Assembly (NCBI RefSeq): GCF_000189635.1
Contig: NW_002476571.1
Location: 714,148 to 778,147 of the forward strand
Length of the DNA stretch: 64,000 nucleotides
Source of the DNA: Tetrahymena thermophila SB210
Lineage: Eukaryota > Ciliophora > Oligohymenophorea > Hymenostomatida > Tetrahymenidae
Direction: 5' to 3'
Shown: piece by piece, positions 25,556-63,297 of the stretch
Numbering within the stretch: position 1 is the first letter of the stretch
Layout: every line of letters begins with the position of its first letter
The notes under the pieces: generated by a model
Seen by the model: only the letters and a program-made list of their open reading frames with translations
What the model was told of the DNA's origin: nothing
The model's database searches: none
Made by a program: the position numbers and the translations under genes

Positions 25556-26192
25556 AATGACTTGTAAGAATATATTTTTTATTTTATATTTAAATTAAAA
25601 ATCTTTTCTAAAAACATAATACTTTCATAAATAAACAATTTTGCATTTAAATTAGTTTTTTAGGGGGGGGGGTCACAGCCGGGTGCGGTCTTCATTTTTT
25701 TTTTCCCTAATAAAAATTATACCAAAAATTTTTATCCCTTTAACAAGAAAATAGTTTTGAAAATATGCGGATTTAGATTGTATATATTTATTTGCAAATC
25801 TAAAATTTTAATATTCATAAATTATTTCTGATTTTATTATAAATAATAGTCCATTAAAAATTCAAAGATAATAGCATATACAATTTGATGAATAATGTAA
25901 CAATATTTCATAAAATCTTAACTAAACGAATTTATACACTTTGAAAAATATAATTAAATGCGCATAAATAGAAAAGCGTTTTTTTATCTTGATTAAATTT
26001 CTTAATTAATTAACTCGAATCATATTTTTTAGTGGATACTAAATATAAAATATTTATATTTCTTTAGAAATTGGTGTTAATACATTGGTGTCAACAGTCT
26101 ATAATAAACATTTTTAAATAAAGATAAAACACATAAAAAAATAATTTATAGTTAAAATATTAGAAAAAACAACGTTAATCTAAACATAAAAT
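25556..26192. other. Intergenic spacer between convergent genes
   Basis: AT-rich except for a short GC-rich island at 25664-25696. The left boundary of the segmental duplication falls near 26108. No gene seen. Confidence 0.5.
25664..25710. other. GC-rich island followed by oligo-T
   Basis: A run of about nine G is followed by TCACAGCCGGGTGCGGTCTTC and then a run of about ten T. This is wholly unlike the surrounding DNA. The oligo-T after a GC-rich segment resembles a polymerase III terminator on the plus strand, but I cannot recognise an RNA. It could equally be an assembly or vector artefact. Confidence 0.4.
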
Positions 26193-28475
26193 TCATTGGC
26201 TAGAATTATTATTACTCACAATACTATTAAATAATACATTTTTTTTAGATCCATTATCTAAATTGTATTTATTTAGGCGAAAAACTTCTTGTGGCAGCAC
26301 GTTTGATTCTTCTAAGTCTGGAGCCTAGAAATTTTCATCTTTGAATAAAAATTTCTTATTTTATTAGCTGTTATCATTAATGGATAAAGGAGATAGTTCA
26401 GAGTTAACAAATCTACTTAAAACAAATTATCTTTATTATAAGTTCTAAGATTTTTTTATAATTTAAATTGGTAGATCTTCAAAGTTAGACTACTATTATT
26501 ATGGCTACTATTATTATTATTAAGCAAATCTCTCTAGTTTTTTAGCGATGCTTCTATCTAAAAGTTAAAGTAATTTCATATCTATGTTTGAAATATTTTA
26601 CTGATTCTTATAAATTTGTTAGTATGCTTTTAGCGTTTATTCAACCTTTTCATCTGCATCATAATTGAATGATCTGAGTAAATTAAATTCTGGACTTAGT
26701 TACATTGAACTCTAGTTTTACATTTCAGTTTCTTACTAATAATTATTATTGGGTGAAGAGTCTAATACTTATTAATTTAAATTTGACTGATTTTATTAAA
26801 TTTTTGATTTTTACTTTAGTTATTTCAAATGAATGTCAATTATTTCTTATGACACTTTAGGCTTAGAAATAAATTCAAATAGCTTTAGCTGATTTTCATT
26901 TAAAAAGAGGTGTTTAAATTTTTCAAATTCCAAAATCTTATTGACAATAAAGTTAATATCTGTGTATTCTGTTATTTTTTGCTGGCTGAAATCTATAAAA
27001 TTTGAAACCTTATTGCGCTTAAAACAGCTAAAGTAATGGTAAATAAAATCTTTGAATTATATGCTCAACTTATTAGTTTGGCTGATACCTTTTTTGATCT
27101 TTTAAAACAATTCATTCTTTAAAGTCTAGCCTTTATAAGATCTTTATGAAATATTGTCAGTTTACTCATTTTGTTTAGGACTACCATCTTTTTTGTTAAG
27201 TAAGGAGTTAGCCATTGGACTATCTCCATCTCTTCTTACCTTTGGACTCTCATTTTAGATAATAGAATTTTGAAGTTTTATTTTTTCATTTTTTTTAAGA
27301 TTTTCCTTGTTATTCACTTGAGATTTTTCTTCCTTAATGTAATCATTAAATTACTCTCCTTGTTTAGTCATTTAATTACTTTCATCAATTTTCTTTTCTT
27401 TCATACTAAAAGTAAATGTTTAGTTGATGAGCTCTCTTTTAAGTTGTAGCGAAGTGTATGGCTTAGCTAGTATGCAGCCAACAAAAAACAATATGTTGTA
27501 AAAACCACCAATTTAAGAAATGACCGAGCTCAGCTTAGTATATGTTCTGTTAATATTTAACTCTTTGCTTTTTTCCAAATATATTATAAGCTTGAAAATG
27601 CCTTATGAAGCATCTGTTCCTGTAATAGCTGACTGTTAAGAGAATATCAATTAGCTTTACTACTAAATATCAGAACTTATCAATCCGATATCATCATTTA
27701 CATGGGTATTCATGTATGTGAAAGATACTATTTACAAGGCATTTGTATTTACACTGTAGTAAGTACCACTTGCGTATGGTATAAAAGGATTTTAATAGTT
27801 TTCAGCTTAAACTATATAATCTGAATAATAAACATGCATTTATTTATTCTTTATTTTATTGGTTATTACTTAAGGGTCTGCACAGCCTTTGCCCTAGCAA
27901 GTAGAGATAGTAATTAAAATACCCGAATAAATATTTGTTTCAACTTAACCTTCTAAGAAGAGATTATCTATGTCTTAAATACAATAAAGCTATTCATAAT
28001 TGTAAATAGCAGTGAATTGACTCTAGAGTGAAGGAATACCAAATAGTTCTTGAGTGCAAGGTCCAACTTTTATATCATTAAAGACTGATTAATATTTAGT
28101 ATTTCCATTTTTGTCTTAAACAGGCACTTTTAACATGAATTAAGCACTTGCCTTATAAATTGTTTCATCCATAAAAGGATTTTAGTTAGCATCCAAAATA
28201 CCAAAAGCAAAAATAAAATTATTTCTATTTAAATTAACTCTTGAAGGTATTTTTAGCTCATTTTACTGAATTACTTAAGGGTTTTCCTTTCTATAAATGA
28301 CCAAACCAGCGCTTATAGCCATGTAAGCAAGTACAGCAAATACAATCAAAGAAACAAAACCGCCAATTTTTGTTGTAAATTTATCTTTTGAATGAAAACT
28401 TATTTGGATAGGAACTCCAAAAATGTCTAGCCCATTTAGCATAGAGTTCATGCCTGAGCTTGTTTTAGAAATCAT
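26193..28475 (-). CDS. Two-TM ciliate membrane protein, paralogue 1, 760 aa
   Basis: Single exon of 761 codons from ATG 28475 to TGA 26195-26193; I scanned the frame and found no internal TGA. A short cytoplasmic N-terminus contains MLNGLDIFGVPIQISFHSKD. The first membrane helix lies at about residues 38-61 (GGFVSLIVFAVLAYMAISAG). A loop of about 250 residues follows, with few cysteines and typical YRKENPQVIQQNELKIPSR and GPCTQELFGIPSLQSQF stretches. A second helix is at about 312-335 (SQIGGFYNILFFVGCILA). The remaining 400 or more residues are cytoplasmic, Lys/Gln/Ser-rich, and include a polyglutamine tract coded entirely by TAA/TAG. I know this architecture only as an uncharacterised expanded family in ciliates; no function is assigned. 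A close paralogue lies at 37481-39799. Confidence 0.85.
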
Positions 28476-33361: not shown

Positions 33362-36300
33362 ATGGCTAATAAAGAAAAAAAAATGAATTAATAGAATAAC
33401 TCTTTTAATAATCTAGAAGATGTAACCATCATTATTTATTTTATTTATTATTATAAAACCTTTTTTTTAAATAAAAAGTTAATAAAATCTAACTTGAAAG
33501 CTCTAACTCATATTGACTTACAGTTAAAGTAAGAAATATATATATTTATATATTTATTTATTAATTTTTAATCTTAAATTTTTAAAAGCAATATTAATTT
33601 ATTTTAACAAAAATAAAAAAATATTTTAAAAGTTTTTCTCTTTTTTATAAATTTACAAAATAAATTAGAATAAATAAAATTTCATATCTTTCATTCATTC
33701 ATAAATTAAATTTTTTTGTTATTATTTATAAAATAAATAGAAATTGTACTCTTAGTAAAGAATAAGTTGCTTAGCTTAACACTTCTTTAGTCTAATGTTA
33801 AAAATTAGAATCTTTACAATTAAATCTTAAGTAATAATTTAACTTAATTATCTTAAATATCATAATTGATTACTTTTTATTATCAATCTAATATTTAGTA
33901 AGGAAGATATTTCAGATGATTAGATAAAATAATTATTTGCTGAATTACCCTACTTAAAATATTTTGTTGAAACTGATAATAATATGAGGTAAATATATTT
34001 TTTATATTAATAAATCTTTAATTTAGCCAACAAATTGTTTAATAAATTATAATATTGTCTTTTTACTCTTGATATTTCTTCTATAAATAAAAANNNNNNN
34101 NNNNNNNNNNNNNNNNNNNNNNNNNNNNNNNNNNNNNNNNNNNNNNNNNNNNNNNNNNNNNNNNNNNNNNNNNNNNNNNNNNNNNNNNNNNNNTTGAAAT
34201 TTAAGGAAATATTCTGTAAGAAGAAACAATGAGTAATCTAATTAATCTCAAAAGTTTAGACTTAAGATTAGAGTATTCTTTTTTTATTTTATCTTTTTAA
34301 TATAAATAATTAATCTTTCAAAACTCATTAAAATTTGTCATTATTTATTTTTAATAAATTATTTTAAATAATTTTTAAATAAAAGTGGAAAATAAATTGG
34401 TGATAGAATAGAATAGAAAAACTCGCACATATAAATGCACTCAGAATACATCTTAAAATTTATTTTTATTATATTTATATAAATAATTTTTATTTATTTT
34501 TAGGTATTTTCATAATTATTAATTTTTAATAATTCAATCAATATCTGATTTTTGAATATTTAATATACACCCTGTTTCCTCTTTTTATCATTAATTCCAG
34601 AACAATTTGGTAATTTAATAACCTTTTTCTATTGGAAATGAAATTGGAGATAAAGGGGCTTAAAATATTGGATTAGGTTTAAGGAATTGCACTCAACTTA
34701 TAAATTTAAAATTTATTAAAAAGTAAATTTTATTTATTACTTTTGAAAAAAATTATGTAAAAGCTTTATTATTCAAACTGAATTAAATAAGCTTAAAATT
34801 AAAAAAATATAAAGTCTCTAACTTTAATTATTTCATTTATAAAAGCGCAAATTAAATTGGGGATGATGGAGCTTCTACTATTGGTACAGCACTTGGGAAC
34901 TGCAAGTTCCTTACTAATCTTGTTTTTGTTATTTCGTAAAAAAGATTTTATATTTATTTATTGATAACTTAAAAAATTTGAATTACTTTTTTTACTTTGA
35001 TTTAAAATTTCAAATCAAATTTAAATAGTGAATAAATAGATTTATTTTGTTTGAAAAGGTAAAATTAAATTGGTGATAGAGGAGCACAAAATATTGGATT
35101 AGGTTTGAGTAACTGCACTCAACTTACAAATTTAAAATTTTGGATAGAGTAAATTCATCTCATTTATTACTTTTGAATAAAATTATGAAAAACTTTTTCA
35201 TTCAAACTGAATTAAATAAATTTAAAATTTATAAAATAAATGCTTTTAACTTTAATTAAATGTGATTTTCATTTATAAAAGCTCAAATTAAATTGGGGAT
35301 GATGGAGCTTCTACTATTGGTACAGCACTTGGGAACTGCAAGTTCCTTACAAATCTTGGTTTTGTTATTTCGTAAAAAAGATTTTATATTTATTTATTGA
35401 TAACTTAAAAAATTTGAATCACTTTTTTTACTTTGATTTAAATGTCAAATCAAATTTAAATAGTTAATAAATTAATTTATTTTGTTTGAAAAGGGAAAAT
35501 TAAATTGGTGATAGAGGAGCACAAAATATTGGATTAGGTTTGAGTAACTGCACTCAACTCACAAATTTAAAATTTTGGATAGGGTAAATTCATCTCATTT
35601 ATTACTTTTGAATAAAATTATGAAAAACTTTTTCATTCAAACTAAATTAAATAAATTTAAAATTTATAAAATAAATGCTTTTAACTTTAATTAAGTGATT
35701 TTCATTTATAAAAGCTAAAATTAAATTGGGGATGATGGAGCTTCTACTATTGGTACAGCACTTGGGAACTGCAAGTTCCTTACTAATCTTGTTTTTGATA
35801 TTTCGTAAAAAAGATTTTATATTTATTTATTGATAACTTAAAAAGTTTGAATTACTTTTTTTACTTTGATTTAAATGTCAAATCAAATTTAAATAGTTAA
35901 TAAATTAATTTATTTTGTTTGAAAAGGGAAAATTAAATTGGTGATAGAGGAGCACAAAATATTGGATTTGGTTTGAGTAACTGTACTCAACTCACAAATT
36001 TAGAATTTTTGATAGGGTAAATTTATTACTTTTGAATAAAATTATGAAAAACTTTTTCATTCAAACTAAATTAAATAAATTTAAAATTTATAAAATAAAT
36101 GCTTTTAACTTTAATTAAGTGATTTTCATTTATAAAAGCTCAAATTAAATTGGGGATGATGGAGCTTCTACTATTGGTACAGCACTTGGGAACTGCAAGT
36201 TCCTTACTAATCTTGTTTTTGATATTTAGTAAAAAAGATTTTATATTTATTTATTGATAACTTAAAAAGTTTGAATTACTTTTTTTACTTTGATTTAAAT

Positions 36301-37010
36301 TTCAAATCAAATTTAAATAGTGAATAAATTGATTTATTTTGTTTGAAAAGGGAAAATGAAATTGGTGATAGAGGAACATAAAATATTGGATTAGGTTTGA
36401 GTAAATGCTCTTAACTTACAAATTTAAGTTTTATATCAGAGTAAATTTTATTTATTATTTTTGAAAAAAATTAAATTAAAGTATTTAAGATATTAATTAA
36501 AATATCTTTTTTTTTAGTAATGATGATATATTTCTAAAATCAAGTGAAATCATTAACTGTAAAAACATAAAGTTATTAAAAATAGGGTAATTAATTTTTT
36601 TTATTTGATAATATTAGAAATAATTTTTATCTAAAAATTAAATTTAAATTTGAAAAAACATATAGATATTTCAAAAGATTGGCTTAAAAAATAAAAAGAT
36701 TAGTTAAATTAATTGTAGAAAATGAAGATTGAATTACTAAAATTAATAATTAAATATTAATTTATTAACATTACATATTATTATAACAATAAATATAAAA
36801 TATAAAAGTTTTATAATGAGTATATATTTTAATCTTTAATTGCATTTCATAAAAAAGAATTGATTGAATATCAGAATTTAATTATCATTTAGTAAAATTA
36901 ATAAAATGTTGAATATATATGCTATATAGGATAAAATCTTTCTTTTGTATCTACTATATTAACTATTTGCAAAATAAAAACTGTATTAATTTACTTTTTT
37001 AATCTTTAGG
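33362..37010 (+). CDS. LRR protein with near-identical tandem repeat exons; contains assembly gap; 3' end uncertain
   Basis: Exon 1 (33362-33528) starts at ATG and ends NLKALTHIDLQL. A 90-base LRR exon is at 33899-33988. The N gap 34094-34193 cuts the next, whose 3' part is 34194-34272. An A-type exon ends at 34722 with no clear AG acceptor. Then come clean 90-base exons at 34846-34935, 35059-35148, 35282-35371, 35494-35583, 35715-35804, 35927-36016, 36139-36228 and 36351-36440, and a 69-base exon at 36518-36586. All share the same phase. Two types alternate: A (NQIGDRGAQNIGLGLSNC) and B (NQIGDDGASTIGTALGNC). They form ribonuclease-inhibitor-type repeats, probably a protein-binding solenoid. 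A further coding-like segment starts at 37010 ([18 protein letters not shown]) and runs into a TATG microsatellite, so the true end is not fixed. Confidence 0.75.
34094..34193. other. Assembly gap (100 N)
   Basis: A run of exactly 100 N, so probably of arbitrary length. It interrupts an LRR exon of the surrounding gene. Confidence 1.
34633..36440. repeat. ~430-base tandem array of paired LRR exons and introns
   Basis: About four and a half units, each holding one A exon, an intron, one B exon and an intron. B exons start at 34846, 35282, 35715 and 36139, giving periods of 436, 433 and 424. Introns are as similar as exons, for instance GTAAAAAAGATTTTATATTT after every B exon, which points to recent unequal crossing-over. 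Confidence 0.95.
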
Positions 37011-37110
37011 TATCTTCAATTAATTATATTTAACAATTTACAAGATTTAAAGATTAGTAGAAATTTGAAATTTTTTTAAAACTCCATAAAAAATTGTTCA
37101 CAAAACATAA

Positions 37111-37184
37111 TGTATGTATGTATGTATGTATGTATGTATGTATGTATGTATGTATGTATGTATGTATGTATGTATGTATGTATG
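37111..37184. repeat. (TATG)n microsatellite
   Basis: About 18 uninterrupted TATG units. In the frame entering from 37010 it would encode a repeating Met-Tyr-Val-Cys pattern. Confidence 0.95.
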
Positions 37185-37480
37185 ATAGTGACACTTAATA
37201 TTTAGAATAAAAAAATTGAAAATATTTACTAAGTATATTTTTTAAAAATAATTATCTAGATTAAATTTAATGCCTTTTTTATAAGAACCAAATTACTTAT
37301 ATTTAATGATTTCCTTTCTTAAAATTTTAAAGGATTTGAATTATTTTTTTGTAAAATTATCTTAATTATTGGGCAAAAACAATAAATTTAAAACATTTTT
37401 AAACAAAGATAAAACACATATAAAAAAATAATTTATCTTTAAAATATTAGAAAAAATAATATTAATATAAACATAAAAAT

Positions 37481-39799
37481 TCAATGATTAGAATTACTGT
37501 TACTTATAGTACTATTAAATAATACATTTTTTTTAGGTCCATTATCTAGCTTGTATTTATTTAGGCGTAAGAAATCTTCTTTTTGCAGCACATTTGATTC
37601 TTCTAATTCAGGAGTCTAGAAATTTTCATCTTTCAATTAAAATTTCTTATTTTATTAGCTGTTATCATTAACAGATAAAGGAGATTGCATTCCTTCAGAG
37701 TTAACAAATCTACTTAAAACATATTATTTTTATTATAAATTCTAAGAATTTTTGATATTTTAAATTGACAAATCTTCAAAGTTAGATAGTTATTTTTATG
37801 GTAACTAATATTATTATTATTATTATTATTATTATTAAGCAAATCTCTCTAATTTTTTAGCGATACTTCGATCTAAAAGTTTAAGTAATTTGATATCTAT
37901 GCTTGAAATATTTTGCTGGTTCTTATAAATTTGTTAGTATGCTTTTAGCGTTTATTCTACCTTTTCATCTTCATTATAATTGACTGATCTGAGTAGATTA
38001 AATTCTGGGCTTAGTGACATAGAACTCTAGATTTAATTGCCACATATTTCAGTTTATTACTAACAATTATTATTGGGTGAAGTGTCTAATACTTATTAAT
38101 TTAAATTTGGCTGATTTTATTATAGCTTTATTTTTTACTTTAATTATTTCAAATGAATGTCAATTATTTCCTATGACACCTTAGGTTTTGAAATAAATTC
38201 GAATAACTATAGCTGATTTTCATTTAAAAAGAGATGTTTGAATTTTTCAAACTCCAAAATCTTATTGACAATAAAGTTAATATCTGTGTATTCTGTTATT
38301 TTTTGCTAGCTGAAATCTATAAAGTTTGAAACCTTATTGCGTTTAAAACAGCTAAAGTAATAGTAAATAAAATCTTTGAGCTAAATACTCAACTTTTTGG
38401 TTTGACTGATACCTTTTTTGATCTTTTAAAATAACTCATACTTTAAAGTCTAGTCTTTATCAGAACTTTATGAAATATTGCCACTTTACTAGTTTTATTT
38501 AGGACTATCTTCTTTTTTGCTAATTAAAGAGTTAGCCATTGGACTATCTCCATCTCTTCTTACCTTTGGACTCACGTTTTAGATTATAGAATTTTGAAGT
38601 TTTATTTTTTCATTTTTTTTGAGATTTTCCTTGTTATTCACTTTAGATTTTTCTTCTTTAATGTAATCTTTAAATTACTCTCCTTGTTTAGTCATTTAAT
38701 TGCTTTCATCAATTTTATTTTCTTTCATACTAAAAGTAAACGTTTAGTTGATGAGCTCTTTTTTAAGTTGAAGCGAAGTGTACGGCTTAGCTAGTATGCA
38801 GCCAACAAAAAACAATATGTTGTAAAAACCACCAATTTAAGAAATGACTGAGCTCAGCTTAGTATATGTTCTATTAATATTTAACTCTTTGCTTTTTTCC
38901 AAATATATTATAAGTTTGAAAAAGCCTAAGGAAGTATCTTATCCTGTTATAGCTGACTGCTAAGAGAATAGCAATTAACTTTACTATTAAATATCAGAAC
39001 CTATCAATCCGATATCATCGTTTACATGGGTATTCATGTATGTGAAAGATACTATTTACAAGGCATTTGTATTTACGCTGTAGTAAGTACCACTTGCGTA
39101 TGGTATAAAAGGATTTTAATAGTTTTCAGCTTAAACTATATAATCTGAATAATAAACATGCATTTATCTATTCTTTATTTTATTTTCGATTACTTAGGGA
39201 TCTGCACAGCCTTTTCCCTAGCAAGTAGAGATAGTAATTAAAATACCCGAATAAATATTTGTTTCAACTTAACCTTCTAAGTAGAGATTATCTATGTCTT
39301 AAATACAATAAAGCTAATCATAATTGTAAATAGCAGTGAATTAACTCTAGAGTGAAGGAATACCAAATAGTTCTTGAGTGCAAGGTCCAACTTTTATATT
39401 ACTAAAGACTGATTAATATTTAGTATTTCCATTTTTATCTTAAACAGGCACTTTCAGCATGAATTAAGCACTTGCCTTATAAATTGTTTCATCCATAAAA
39501 GGGTTTTAGTTAGCATCCAAAATACCAAAAGCAAAAATAAAATTATTTCTATTTAAGTCCACTCTTGAAGGTATTTTTAGCTCATTTTACTGAATTACTT
39601 AAGGGTTTTCCTTTCTGTAAATGATCAAAACAGAACTTACAGCCATGTAAACAAGTACAGCAAATACAATCAAAGAAACAAAACCGCCAAGCCTTGTTGT
39701 AAATTTATCTTTTGAATGAAAATTTATTTAGATAGGAACTCCAAAAATGTCTAGCCCATTTAGCATAGATCTCACACCTGAGTTTGTTTTAGAAATCAT
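37481..39799 (-). CDS. Two-TM ciliate membrane protein, paralogue 2, 772 aa
   Basis: Single exon of 773 codons from ATG 39799 to TGA 37483-37481, without internal TGA on a line-by-line scan. It matches paralogue 1 along its whole length: the same N-terminal MLNGLDIFGVPIQI box, first helix (GGFVSLIVFAVLVYMAV), extracellular loop, second helix and Gln/Lys-rich tail. The differences are point changes and small in-frame indels, mainly in the tail (12 residues longer). Both copies being intact implies either recent duplication or selection to keep both. It is the core of the right copy of the segmental duplication. Confidence 0.85.
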
Positions 39800-40842
39800 C
39801 TTTTAGTTTTAGGAGAAATTATTTAATAATTGATTTTTTTTGTTAATTAATTATCTAGATTACTGATTAAACTAGCAGATTTAATAACATATAATATATG
39901 GCCAAATTATAAAAAATCTGCTAGTTATTTCATTTACTGATTTTGATTTAATGAAATAACTTTTCTTCACTTTTTATGCTTTTATTTAATCTAAATTATA
40001 TATTTTATTGCTTTTTAAATTTTATTTGTTTGATGATATTAATTACACTTTTTCTGGAAAGAAATATAAGAAATTAAAAAAAAAACTATAATTAGAAATG
40101 ATCCTTATAAGAAATTCAAATATGTCTAGCTAGCAGGTTTAGTATAGAGATTAATACTTGAGCTTATTTTAAAAGCCATCGCTACATTTTAATTATAAAT
40201 ATACTGATTATTTACATTTAAATTATTTCTGCTATTAATTATCATAAATCAGTAGATTACATTTAAAAATATATTAAGTTAGTTAGTTTACTTATTTTAA
40301 GATAAAGAGTAAAATAGAAAATAAGTGCATGATTTTCACCTAGCATTTTAAAATAATAAAATAACTTTTCCTCAGCTTTTTTGCTTTTCTTTGATTATTT
40401 TTTTTTTCATTTGGTGGTAATAATAGCTAAAAAGTAAATTACTGGCTTAATAATAATTGAATTATTCCTTTTTTTGCTTACTGAAATTTATAAAGATCAA
40501 AGACTTAATACAATTAAGTAAGATAATTTATATGTAAAAAATATTATAAGTGTTTGTTTGCTAAATACATTTTTTATTAGATTTTCGTTGTTTTCTTAAA
40601 ATATTTGTTTGGTTTTTATTCAAATTTTTTAAATAATTAAGTAATTTATCCATCTTTATTTAACTATTTAGGAATAGAGAGTAAGCCATAAGTGTTAAAA
40701 TAAAAAGTAGAAAGTGAAAAAAATATATTTAGTTTTACAAAATAAGAAAATTTAATTTTTTTTTAAATGTTACTTCGATAAAAGTAAATAAATAAATAAA
40801 ACAAACAAACTTTAATAAAAGTACCTAATTTTTGTTCATTTT

Positions 40843-40928
40843 AATTTATTATTAGAAACAAACCCCTAAGTTTTATAAATAATATAATTTATTATTAGAA
40901 ACAAACCCCTAAGTTTTATAAATAATAC
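40843..40928. repeat. Perfect-like 43-base tandem duplication
   Basis: The unit starting AATTTATTATTAGAAACAAA and containing CCCCTAAGTTTTATAAATAA occurs at 40843-40885 and again at 40886-40928, differing only at the last base. Confidence 0.95.
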
Positions 40929-46846: not shown

Positions 46847-49800
46847 ATGGGAAAAAATCAAAGCATTGAAAAGATTTAAAAAATATAAAACAAGCTTTCA
46901 TAGGATTGCATTTTAAAAGAAGATATGAAGAAAATTATTAATAGCTTAAAAAATTAATATTAAAAAATAATTTTTTTGGCTAATGATAGAAATTCTTTAC
47001 TAATTTCTTGCATACATAGGTAGAAAAAAGCAAATTTGATTTTAAGAATTTCAACACAGCCTTTTAAACCCTTAAAAATTATAGATATCAAAGATGATTC
47101 ATTGTATCCATCTTGTTAGCAGCATGTTTTGTAGCAATTTAGTTTCATTTTATAAAAAGATTAATCAACTTATTTATAGAATCCATCACCTACAAAATAG
47201 ATTTAGGTTACTTAAAACAGAAACAATGAAACAAATTTAAAATCAGAATAAATTCTTAATAAAATAAATATTGATAACTAATCTACATTATATAATGGAC
47301 ATTAAAAAGAAAACATTTCAACATTTTATGTGCAGGAACTGAACCAAACCCTTTATTTTTAAAATCTTAAAACTCTATGTTTCGCAGAATATTCTCCACC
47401 ATATCAAATCAAGCAAAACTTCCATTTAGTGACCAAGATTTCTTTTTGCAAAAAGCTGTAATTTATTCTTCTTTAAAAATAAATCTTAATATTAATTAAA
47501 ATAATAGTAATGAATAAATAGATATTACTGGAATACAATCTATTGTGGAAAAATGCATAAATCTTGAAAGTCTGACATTATAATTCATGTTATTTTAATT
47601 TGTTTAGAAATTCACACTAAATTCATTTTTAAAGGAAATCATAAATATAGCACTAAGAAATTCTCTGTTTAAATTATTGCTTGAGCTACTGCAAGCAGCT
47701 CTAGGAGCTTAATTTAAATTTAAGGTATTTTAAGAATATATTATCTATTAAATATTCAAAACTTTTTAGTAAAAACGAAGTAGGTGATTAAGGTGTTTTC
47801 CAACTAAGTCTGGCTATTTCTCAATTAACCAAGTTAAATTCATTGAAATTAAACTTAAAGTAAATTTAAAATAATATATGTTGCTTTGATATTAAAATAT
47901 TATAAAAGATAACATAATTATCTTATTTTAAATTAAAATTAATTTTCTAAATTTAGATAAACTCAAATAACTGAGACTGGAGCCTAATATTTAGCAAATT
48001 CTTTACCTAATTGCAAAGAATTAATGAATTTAGATTTAAAAATAAAGTATATAATTTATTAATTAAAATCTTTAAAATTTAGATTTTATAAACAAAAATA
48101 TTAATATATTTTATGTTTAAGCTCGAACAACATACAATCTAATGGTGTTTTATATTTGGGAATAGCAGTTAGCTAATGCAGTAAGATTAAGGAACTCAAA
48201 TTAAACTTTGAGTAGCTAATTTATTATCCTGAATTAATTAATAAATAAATAAAAATTTTTTTACGATATAAAATTAAATAGTAGTGTCAAAATATAAGGA
48301 GAAGGAGTAAAGTCACTGGCTGATGGTATTGGAAAGCTGAAAGATATTGAATTTTTGAAATTAAAATTATCGTAAATTATTATTTCATTTAATAAAATAA
48401 AAATGAATATTTTAAATAAAAGATATAATGATATTCAAACATTGGAAGTCAAAGCACTTATCTCTGAAATATCTAAATGTAGTAAAATTAAAGAGTTAGA
48501 TTTATGTCTTAAGTAAATATATACTTTGCTTAATTTTATATTTAACATTTATTTTTTTCAATCAAAAGATATACAAACGTTAATGGTGAGATTTCTTTTA
48601 GCAAATTATTAACAAATTTAACTAATTTAGAGGTGCTGATTCTAAATTTTGAGTAATTTTTTCTTTAAAATTTTTTTTTAACTAATTTTTTAAAATAAAA
48701 GCATTCACAATTTTCAATAGCAGAATATCGAAAATTTAGTATTGAGTCTTAATTCAAACTAAAAATTAAAGAAATTTGAATTGAGTTTCACGTAAAAAAT
48801 ATTTATTACATAATAATATTTATAAACTTTAATATCTGATAGAAACAATAAAATCAATTAAGAACTGGCTAATAAGATAACGAACAATATTATGTCAATG
48901 AGCTAACTCACTGACTTAAAGCTTTGCCTTAAGTAATCAAAAAATAAAACCATTAATTTTTAAAAATACTCTTTATTATTTATTAAATAGGAAAAATGAA
49001 ATCAAAAAAGATGTCTTAGATATTTTTGGCATTAAAATTTCTTAATTCAAATAACTTAAATCGTTGAAAATGGATTTGTCGTATATTTTTTCTAATAATA
49101 ATAAATAAATTTAAAAAAATTATAATTAATATATAGAAAAAATGATATAAATTCAGCTGCTTTTAGAAGTTTCATTAATAATTTAAGCTAATCAAAAAGC
49201 CTTAAATAGCTTCAAATAAATGTTAGGTAAATTTAATTTTTTTAATTTTACAAAAATATTATTTTTGATATTAATAATTAGCTAAAATGCCCCAAACTAG
49301 TTTCTATAGGATCAACAACTATATTTTCTAAATTAAATGACTTCACTCACTTAACTTAGACTAAATTTAGAGTAATCCAAATTTAATTTAAAAAATTTAA
49401 AACTAAAATAAATTTTCATTCAATTTAGAAGCTTTCTTATTTTTGAAGAAGATATCAGTAAACTCCAATAAGAGCTTATTTAGCTTAAATAACTCTAACA
49501 ACTACAAATTCATTTTAAGTAAATTTTTAATAACTTAAAACTATTGATTAACTTATAAAAATAAAATTTAGACTCCGAATATTTTANNNNNNNNNNNNNN
49601 NNNNNNNNNNNNNNNNNNNNNNNNNNNNNNNNNNNNNNNNNNNNNNNNNNNNNNNNNNNNNNNNNNNNNNNNNNNNNNNNNNNNNNTTATAAAATAAATT
49701 AGCTGCAATTTAAAGCAAATTTCTTTTCTTAAACTTTCAAATCCGTAAATTCTAAATTTAACAATTTTTCATATTAACTTATTAATTATTTCTTTTATAA

Positions 49801-60926: not shown

Positions 60927-63297
60927 TATGCTTATTTTAGTAAACTATTTACTATTCTTAATATTTGTAATTTTTTTTAAATTTGCAATTTACACACATT
61001 CATTTTGATTTTTTGAAGTTTTTTATTTTTTATTTAAAAATAACTTATTTTTAGCCAATAAATTGTCTTAATATCTCATGAAATAAAATACCTCATGTTA
61101 CCTTATTATAATAGATGAATTTATAATTATTTTTTCAATTAATTTACAAATACTTGAAAATTAAGTATAGAAATAAATAATATTTCAAATATCTAGTATT
61201 TTTTGTAAATGCTATTTTTCTTTTTTCTTTTTCTAGATTCTAAATATTTTTAAACAAATTCGACCAAGTATTTATTATCAAAAAAAAAGAATTTTAATAT
61301 TAATGAATAATAAAGTAAAAAATAAGTAAATAAGTTTTGAAATAAACTTTAATTAGAGTTGTATAAGAATTATTTATAATTGAATAAATTAGAAAATTTA
61401 AATTCAATAAAAACTTTTTAAATAAATTTTTTCAATATGAATTATAAGCATATGACGTCCTATTCCCCAAGTATTTATAATTTTGAACTTAAGGTATTTT
61501 TATTTTTTTCTATATAAGTAATATTAGCCATTTAATTATTTTTTGATTTATATGATAAAGCAATAAAATTTTCTATTTTAAAAATTTCATTTATTTATTT
61601 TTTTACAAAATTATTATCTGTTAATATAAAAATAAAAAAATGGCAAAATTACCATTTTACAAATAATATTATATCTTAAAACAAATTATAATTTTTATCT
61701 ATTTTTTAAAATTTATTCACTCGATTTTCATAATCCAATTTAATTTCCACTTTTTAAATAAAGAAAACATAATTAAATATTAAAGATATAAAGAAAGAAA
61801 CTATTACAAATCCTGGTATTTAAACATGTTGAACTAGCTGGATAGGATTATATTTTGCTGAATTATGTTTAATTTAAATTTAAAATAAAAAAATATTTAT
61901 GAAAAGGTAGGTAAGTAAATTAATATTCAATAAAATTCATAAACTGAATATTATACAAAAATATATTGTATAAAAACTGTTCAATTAAAATATTCAATTT
62001 TTTCATATTTTTGGGGGTTTTCATTAAATATCAAATAGTTTTTTTACAATTTTTGTAAACCATAGGCGTTTTATACGAAAAAAATCATATATATAATTTA
62101 ATACTTTTTAAATGTTAATCAAATAAATTACATAGAATATCCTTATTATCTTATTATTTATTTGAAAATGAAATTAAGAACTTTTGTATAACCAAAATTG
62201 TATAAGAATTAATAATAATAAGATTTTATTAATATTTTTATTAATTTATAGAGTGGCTTTTAATTTTTTATTAATATTCTAAAAATTAATAAATTTATTT
62301 TAAAAGTATTTTAAATTTATTTTTTTAATTATTCTTCATTTCATTAAATTTAGCAAAATCAGGTTTGTCTTACCAGAAAATTAATGAAATTGAGGATTGC
62401 TACTTTCCAACATTTATTTTATTTAAACTTTGACTTTAATATAAAAGATATGTTTACTATTGAATTCTGAGATTACTTATAGATAAAAAAGTCAATTAAT
62501 TATTTTGCTTGAAATCAAAATTTATAAGAAAAATACAATTAAATTTTTAGTTGCCTTAAAATTTTAACATAAATAATTAATTACCTATAGTATATGATGA
62601 ATAAATAAATATAATGGTCCAATAAAGCTAGAATTTATCAAGTTTTAACATATAAATAAATATAATGGTCCAATAGAACAATAATTAATCAAGTTTTAAG
62701 AATAAATAATTATAATGGCCCAATAAAATTAGTATTTATCAAGTTTTGAGAATAAATAAACTTTATAACTTAAGCAACAAAACTCTTCAAATTATTATAA
62801 ATTTATTCTACAAGTTAAAATTTTATTTCAAATATAAGCAGTTCTTTCTATTAATGAGAAAATAATAAATTATGTTTGAAATTAAAAAATTTTTAATATA
62901 TTTTAATACTAATAGTAAATTATTTTCTTCATTAAACGTAGGTACTTTTTTGGCACTCTCTAGTTTTAAAATATTATTACTCCTTACATTCAATATTTTT
63001 TCTTTTTTAATTTAGCATTAAATTAATTAAATCAATATCTTTTATTTCTAATTAATTTACCTGAAAATTTAAAACTATAACAAAAGTTATCACTCATTAC
63101 CAAGTTTAAAATTCTATATAAGCATTAGAATTTATCAACCCATTTATTATTTACTGTTTATTTTTCAAATTTATAAACATTAATAATGATACTTCTAGTA
63201 CTTTTGTACTTTGATGTAAAAAACTTTATTTTAAATTCAAACCAAATTTTATTTTCTAAAATATATAATCAATTAATTAAAAAGAAAAGTAAAAAAT
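60927..63297. other. Spacer between the tandem surface-protein genes
   Basis: AT-rich, no gene. Its last kilobase matches the region upstream of copy 1 and holds the minisatellite at 62601-62755. Confidence 0.55.
62601..62755. repeat. ~50-base minisatellite, three copies
   Basis: Units start near 62601, 62652 and 62702. Each contains ATAAATAA, ATAATGGTCCAATA (GGCCC in unit 3) and TTATCAAGTTTTA. The equivalent spot before copy 1 (about 57960-58030) has a single unit. Confidence 0.9.

Follow-up and report, generated by a model that had tools for sequence, protein, structure and literature searches.

The window (the whole stretch of 64,000 nucleotides of Tetrahymena thermophila SB210, contig NW_002476571.1, that we have analysed) contains an LRR gene that is real, young and of a known class; its middle is an array of alternating 90-bp exons of two types, A and B. 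The copied unit of the array is the A-B exon pair, and recently copied exons of the family are under diversifying selection at residues 26, 28, 30 and 1 of the repeat. The explanation that best accounts for the whole, and that we hold with good confidence, is that the array would have grown by unequal exchange, that diversifying selection would have acted on its copies, and that its left edge would have been remodelled by a dispersed element.

The array and its surroundings

The array is real, and it lies where the first-pass annotation had placed it (34633-36440): Tandem Repeats Finder calls it at 34636-36473, with a period of 424, 4.3 copies, 92% matches and a score of 3001, the repeats being detectable at the nucleotide level; this call and the matches elsewhere in the genome rule out a chance or single-copy repeat. 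The features of the gene are the following, in window coordinates:

33741-33830, plus strand: older 90-bp phase-2 LRR exon of the gene head, between AG and GT, open in table 6, with a counterpart in the paralogue on contig C222
33899-33988, plus strand: second older 90-bp head LRR exon, between AG and GT, open, with a counterpart in the C222 paralogue
34094-34193, no strand: assembly gap of 100 N; the C222 paralogue has about 214 bp between the flanking matches
34183-34272, plus strand: third head exon, donor GT at 34273; its C222 counterpart (L009 4872-4961) ends alike
34386-34405, plus strand: start (20 nucleotides) of the exon that is the first B exon in the paralogues, truncated by the element; intron and exon start match C222
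34406-34632, plus strand: dispersed element of about 228 bp; 98-100% copies at C67, C220, C60 and C419; 96 copies of its tag
34633-34722, plus strand: exon A1, without AG in front; corresponds in position to exon 8 in the paralogue on C222 (92%)
34846-34935, plus strand: exon B1, between AG and GT
35059-35148, plus strand: exon A2, between AG and GT
35282-35371, plus strand: exon B2, between AG and GT
35494-35583, plus strand: exon A3, between AG and GT
35715-35804, plus strand: exon B3, between AG and GT
35927-36016, plus strand: exon A4, between AG and GT
36139-36228, plus strand: exon B4, between AG and GT
36351-36440, plus strand: exon A5, between AG and GT; corresponds to the last A exon in the array on C203
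36441-37050, plus strand: 3' region that is conserved in the gene family; at least 34 other matches from or near its first base, plus one of 41 bp

The two alternating kinds of 90-base LRR exon that had been described from the letters are indeed present: the A/B order alternates, and eight of the nine array exons are consecutive and measure exactly 90 bp between AG and GT; the ninth, A1, has its GT donor and is preceded by AT, not AG. The array introns are 122-133 bp long in the window. Once spliced, the array exons are read in phase 2 across the splices without a stop in the ciliate code (table 6), the other two frames not being open, so the proposed phase symmetry of the exons is upheld. A match to Pfam LRR_6 (PF13516; 67.6 bits against a cut-off of 23.4, 3.8e-19) is taken here to mean a ribonuclease-inhibitor-like LRR, and the motif L22xxL25xF27xI29xxN2xIGDxGA is one that we take to resemble the ribonuclease-inhibitor-type repeats.

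The A and B exon types have 58% of their bases in common on average, and each type is uniform in the core of the array: exons A2-A4 are mutually 92-97% identical, exons B1-B4 96-98%, the iBA introns 96-98%, and the iAB2-4 introns 99-100%, plus 2-11 gap columns. The alignment of introns between units gives identity equal to or higher than that of the exons, in agreement with the statement that introns are as conserved as exons. The units had also been called near-identical, which is correct for this core (A2-A4, B1-B4 and the inner introns) and incorrect for the edges, where the identity to the remaining A exons is 77-80% for A1 and 79-84% for A5, and that of iAB1 to the remaining iAB introns is 88-89%.

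On either side of the array the gene continues. The first 11 bases of the third head exon fall inside the assembly gap, its start being placed by the 90-bp exon of the C222 paralogue, while in the 3' region an LRR-like exon starts, in frame, at 36518. Directly past the tail region there is a perfect ATGT repeat (37110-37184, 18.8 copies), and a 150-bp stretch 3' of the array (37391-37540) is 87% alike to window 26106-26252 (C9:740253-740399). Elsewhere in the window, a 43-bp unit is perfectly duplicated at 40842-40927, and a 50-bp unit, 50 being no multiple of three, occurs three times at 62599-62760 with 83% matches. Additional 90-bp LRR exons with AG and GT are found at 108-429 and 48122-48211, so other LRR genes may flank the gene described here. 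Searches of the window have returned no Rfam match and no ARAGORN gene (bacterial code used).

The paired register across sister arrays

Our comparison of sister arrays covers the window and 20 stretches fetched from half (14) of the 28 remaining contigs with matches, scanned with two scoring matrices grown from the A and B exons of the window, a scan by which strongly diverged exons are missed. It has recovered 370 exons in 29 runs of at least three; AG is present in 367 of them and GT in 366, and none contains an in-frame TGA in phase 2, while 322 and 167 do so in the other two frames. The A and B types alternate at 314 of the 341 steps between neighbouring exons (2000 shuffles: mean 182, maximum 210). 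The 27 remaining steps, 22 of them B-B and five A-A, all fall within six steps of the start of a run except for one internal A-A, and most belong to a recurrent head, B-A-B-B-B.

Seven sister genes have both the head and the family tail after the last A; their A/B order is mostly strict, and they contain 16, 17, 22, 25, 27, 27 and 30 detected exons, counts that leave out a few exons missed or cut off at stretch ends. This register suggests that exchange moves the exons mostly in pairs.

The left edge of the array and the dispersed element

The first-pass annotation had placed the left limit of the array at 34633. The limit stands, and A1 is a 90-bp exon with a GT donor; it lacks, on the other hand, an ordinary exon start, and the dispersed element in front of it is a mobile-element scar that had been overlooked together with a loss of exons. 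The element contains GAATA units, a conserved 37-bp tag at 34415-34451 and, near its end, TTTTTCTA; it directly follows the first 20 bases of the first B exon of the paralogues and ends where A1 starts. Because it spans the interval from nucleotide 20 of exon 1 to the start of A1, the rest of exon 1, the paralogue exons up to exon 7 and the acceptor of A1 are missing. The left edge would thus have been remodelled by the tail of a site-specific retroelement in the first B exon, about seven exons being lost. Another reading of the element, as a mini transposon whose ends are inverted (TAGAAAAA / TTTTTCTA), has been considered; a retroelement tail is preferred because the GAATA units vary in number and the left end is common to the copies.

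The reading frames suggest how A1 might be spliced or skipped: leaving it out would join 34272 to 34846 in frame, and a short A1 starting at 34684, inside the exon, would also be in frame. An in-frame rescue of A1 by an AG of the element is rejected, the nearest one (34599-34600) putting A1 out of frame, with stops, and read-through from exon 1 meets TGA at 34546. At exon A1, the gene may have suffered damage. It could even be a decaying pseudogene, no longer made since it lost seven exons and the A1 acceptor to the element, a reading that we regard as possible but on balance doubtful: the AT before A1, the absence of exons 1-7 of the C222 paralogue, the out-of-frame A1 and the TGA at 34546 are all consistent with it, while the spliced array without a stop, the in-frame join past A1, and the changes among the core units, which fall on the same four residues that vary in the family (8 of the 12 variable exon bases lie within codons 1, 26, 28 and 30), speak against it.

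The tag occurs in 96 copies genome-wide with up to 3 mismatches (reversed control: 0), namely the window copy and those of loci L030-L125, where most loci have one tag and L040 has two; the copies mostly have 1-4 GAATA units. According to an automatic rule, which covers the sequence before the tag only, the junction is located after nucleotide 20 of an LRR exon in 68 of the 96 copies, after nucleotide 19 in 16 and after nucleotide 23 in one, so that 84 tags join an LRR exon after nucleotide 19-20; the rule-joined copies have one orientation. In seven more copies (window, L044, L055, L119, L120, L124 and L125) an LRR-exon start is recognised by eye, and in L034, L073, L113 and L115 there is no clear one. 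All 96 copies were read together with their flanks: in 78 of them, the 60 bases ahead of the tag contain a target 16-mer with at most 3 mismatches, against 0.9% of letter shuffles. After the tag, a strict pattern for the remainder of the LRR exon is found in 16 of the 96 copies, within short flanks; a loose match (76 of 96) was mostly spurious when listed, and has been discarded.

The sequence flanking the tag is not constant but agrees with the LRR subfamily of its locus (the window and L042/L097 versus the rest), which makes an independent target more likely than an LRR flank travelling with the element. The tags L042 and L097 (C249:138753 and 140426) lie within 1.7 kb of each other, their exons have an A-to-B-type intron end, and they perhaps belong to one sister array. 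None of the tags in this somatic genome has a reverse transcriptase detected next to it; the sole match, on C134, lies on a contig without a tag.

Homogenisation of the core and the mode of copying

The core units of the window are 2.4-3.8% apart, while their best match among the fetched outside units is 8.7-10% away (at least 8.7% for any of these), which supports the earlier claim that whole genomic exon-intron pairs were copied; the last window unit is 6-8% from the core units. Across the scanned runs, 85 of the 159 units with a run mate have their nearest neighbour in their own run, where shuffled labels give at most 16. The other 74 have their closest relative outside their run, a number that caps the exchange between genes, as a single gene may be divided over several runs.

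The two ends of the array behave differently from its core. A1 is 92% identical, and its intron 93%, to exon 8 of the C222 paralogue and its intron, with the next best exon at 87%, and A5 is 88% identical to the terminal A of C203; the inner window exons are broadly alike to the inner C222 and C203 exons, mostly at 86-92%. Diverged edges around an alike core are the edge effect expected of unequal exchange, and conversion would give the same. In the mechanism that we propose, an A-B pair with both its introns (424-435 bp, 60 residues) would have been multiplied via unequal exchange between misaligned copies, the core being homogenised while the array ends would escape exchange and keep their own identity. 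Each exchange would shorten or lengthen a solenoid of the ribonuclease-inhibitor-like kind, in most cases by a single A-B pair, and the symmetry of the exons (90 bp, phase 2) would preserve the frame.

Unequal crossing-over had already been named as the copying route in the first-pass annotation; the copied exon-intron pairs and the edge effect agree with it, while homogenisation is explained equally well by gene conversion, and we infer crossing-over as the mechanism. An older array in which conversion between units keeps the core alike, with no change of copy number, is unlikely: it would fit the alike core, the diverged edges and the up to 74 of 159 units with their nearest relative outside the run, and conversion is also allowed by Xiong et al. 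2019 (PMC6564038) in the published text, but it leaves exon number unchanged and is insufficient alone, given that the sister genes with head and tail vary from 16 to 30 detected exons.

Diversifying selection on four residues of the repeat

For the analysis of selection, 261 exons in regular context were arranged into disjoint pairs by flanking-intron similarity alone, and codon changes were counted without gaps; since the choice of pairs with low intron distance lowers the intron figure, no weight is given to an excess of exon over intron change. Fifty pairs have flanking introns within 5%, consisting of the closest 23 and the next 27. In the closest 23, residues 1, 26, 28 and 30 take 38.3 of the 58.8 nonsynonymous and 3.7 of the 21.2 synonymous changes; in the next 27, they take 64 of 115.5 and 5 of 29.5, respectively (Fisher 3e-4). 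The agreement of the two sets is no blind test, because the four residues were picked from the same data with both bins visible.

With all 50 pairs combined, the ratio of dN at these residues to overall dS is 4.09 (bootstrap 3.19-5.37), compared with 0.22 at eight LRR consensus positions, which were chosen knowing the family, and 0.58 at the others; the Fisher value for the four residues against the rest is 1.8e-7. The average dN/dS figures of 0.84-1.08 conceal these opposite trends across residue classes, and the 73 pairs at 5-20% intron distance present the same pattern in a weaker form (2.66).

It is highly improbable that the pattern reflects a mutational hotspot, i.e. exon ends that mutate or recombine faster: the variable residues do lie near the exon ends, and dS at their codons, 0.079, is somewhat above the 0.038 and 0.052 of the others, but it is well below the dN of the same codons (0.209), and residues 27, 29 and 2, located between the variable ones, change less. 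Under diversifying selection, by contrast, the outward residues of the beta-strand (26, 28, 30 and 1) would be altered after copying while the LRR consensus positions are held. In repeats of the ribonuclease-inhibitor type, residues 26, 28 and 30 would be outward-facing positions of the concave sheet; by this analogy, the four residues are predicted to line the concave face, and the pattern is as would be expected if the LRR protein bound varied partners.

Extent of the gene family and integrity of the locus

The genome searched (101.0 Mb, 445 contigs) has telomerase exons that are identical, over long blocks, to PDB chain 6d6v_A, which is from T. thermophila. In this genome, the array query finds at least 136 matches, spread over 29 contigs including that of the window, and the head region at least 36 others, which amount to 35 places since two are parts of a single one; together with the tail matches listed above, these counts place the family at some 35 genes or gene pieces at least. 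By these matches, the window gene is one family member with conserved head and tail and a variable middle. That the locus is an assembly artefact, with fewer or many more true units or a chimeric join of sister genes, is most improbable: the 100-N gap at 34094-34193 and the sister arrays that reach contig ends (e.g. C203, C412, C37, C165 and C141) mean that copy counts may be off, but the core units are distinguished by substitutions or indels, which disfavours a simple assembler duplication, like arrays are matched in 28 other contigs, and no gap separates the array from the tail.

A-like exons about 300-400 bp apart are present at L015 (plus strand), L017 (minus), L018 (plus) and L021 (minus), there on the strand opposite to the A/B arrays, and at L013 (minus); they probably represent the main class with introns of about 257 bp, adjoining the A/B arrays.

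Wider reading and comparison with known systems

A joint reading of these findings, which we offer tentatively, is that a retrotransposon would be specific for nucleotides 19-20 of the 90-bp LRR exon, i.e. for a coding repeat that is abundant in the host, in the way that R2 is specific for ribosomal genes. Every exon being 90 bp and phase-symmetric, a struck exon could be skipped within a longer intron with the frame kept, and LRR arrays would therefore be a safe harbour for the element, whose scars would mark the array edges and seed exchange, while the host would gain a recognition repertoire. If this is true, fast-changing arrays with a diversifying concave face would provide a single-celled organism with a repertoire for innate recognition. 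The array class is already known; the paired register and the diversifying predicted binding residues point to recognition and name residues to test.

The large family to which the gene belongs had been missed in the first-pass annotation, which was right about the LRR-gene array as such; the family has been described. Xiong et al. 2019 (PMC6564038) report thousands of LRR genes with 90-bp exons in phase 2 and propose unequal crossing-over, with gene conversion allowed as well; the T. thermophila CRS1 subset comprises 69 genes with introns of about 122 bp, masked by one repeat consensus. The window gene shares with this 90-bp-exon class (group III) at least three 90-bp exons in a row, phase-2 introns, nucleotide-level repeats and the proposed unequal crossing-over, and it fits the CRS1 subset, an assignment made by intron length (122-133 bp in the window, medians of 122 and 127 in the scanned runs). 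The differences are two: the published repeat unit is a single exon with its intron, whereas the unit of the window is an A-B pair, and the published Ka/Ks is purifying for most such genes taken whole, whereas four residues are diversifying here. In the main text of Xiong et al. 2019 (PMC6564038), 'dimer' and 'two exons' do not occur, and 'alternat' occurs once, on an unrelated matter; the paired unit, the selection signature and the exact element junction would go beyond that text.

The element is probably a derivative of the tail of Tt.REP, a non-LTR retrotransposon (Fillingham et al., cited in Xiong et al. 2019, PMC6564038), to which it is likened by description rather than by letters. The identity is probable because a 54-bp 3' tail with 169 somatic, LRR-associated copies has been published for Tt.REP (Xiong et al. 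2019, PMC6564038); as in that description, our element has a short conserved tail and many somatic copies that adjoin LRR units (96 tags, 85 of them joined to LRR exons by rule). In contrast, the published sites are placed in LRR introns, while the junctions found here are after exon nucleotide 20, 19 or 23, as a rule 19-20; a struck and skipped exon that was annotated as part of a long intron could reconcile the two. Among the open-licence papers listed, we have found none on a site-specific element in LRR exons. The exact exonic target turns a loose association of element and LRR genes into a testable mechanism of integration, and would correct the insertion site.

The R2 retrotransposons of ribosomal genes have a fixed 3' junction, and in published descriptions they share with the Tetrahymena element an exact target inside a multicopy gene; here, however, the target is a protein-coding LRR exon, and the tags have no reverse transcriptase beside them. 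The ribonuclease inhibitor is likewise built of alternating repeats of type A and type B, one exon holding two repeats. The Tetrahymena array has the same kind of LRR motif and paired repeats that are copied as a module, with the difference that each of its exons holds one repeat instead of two.
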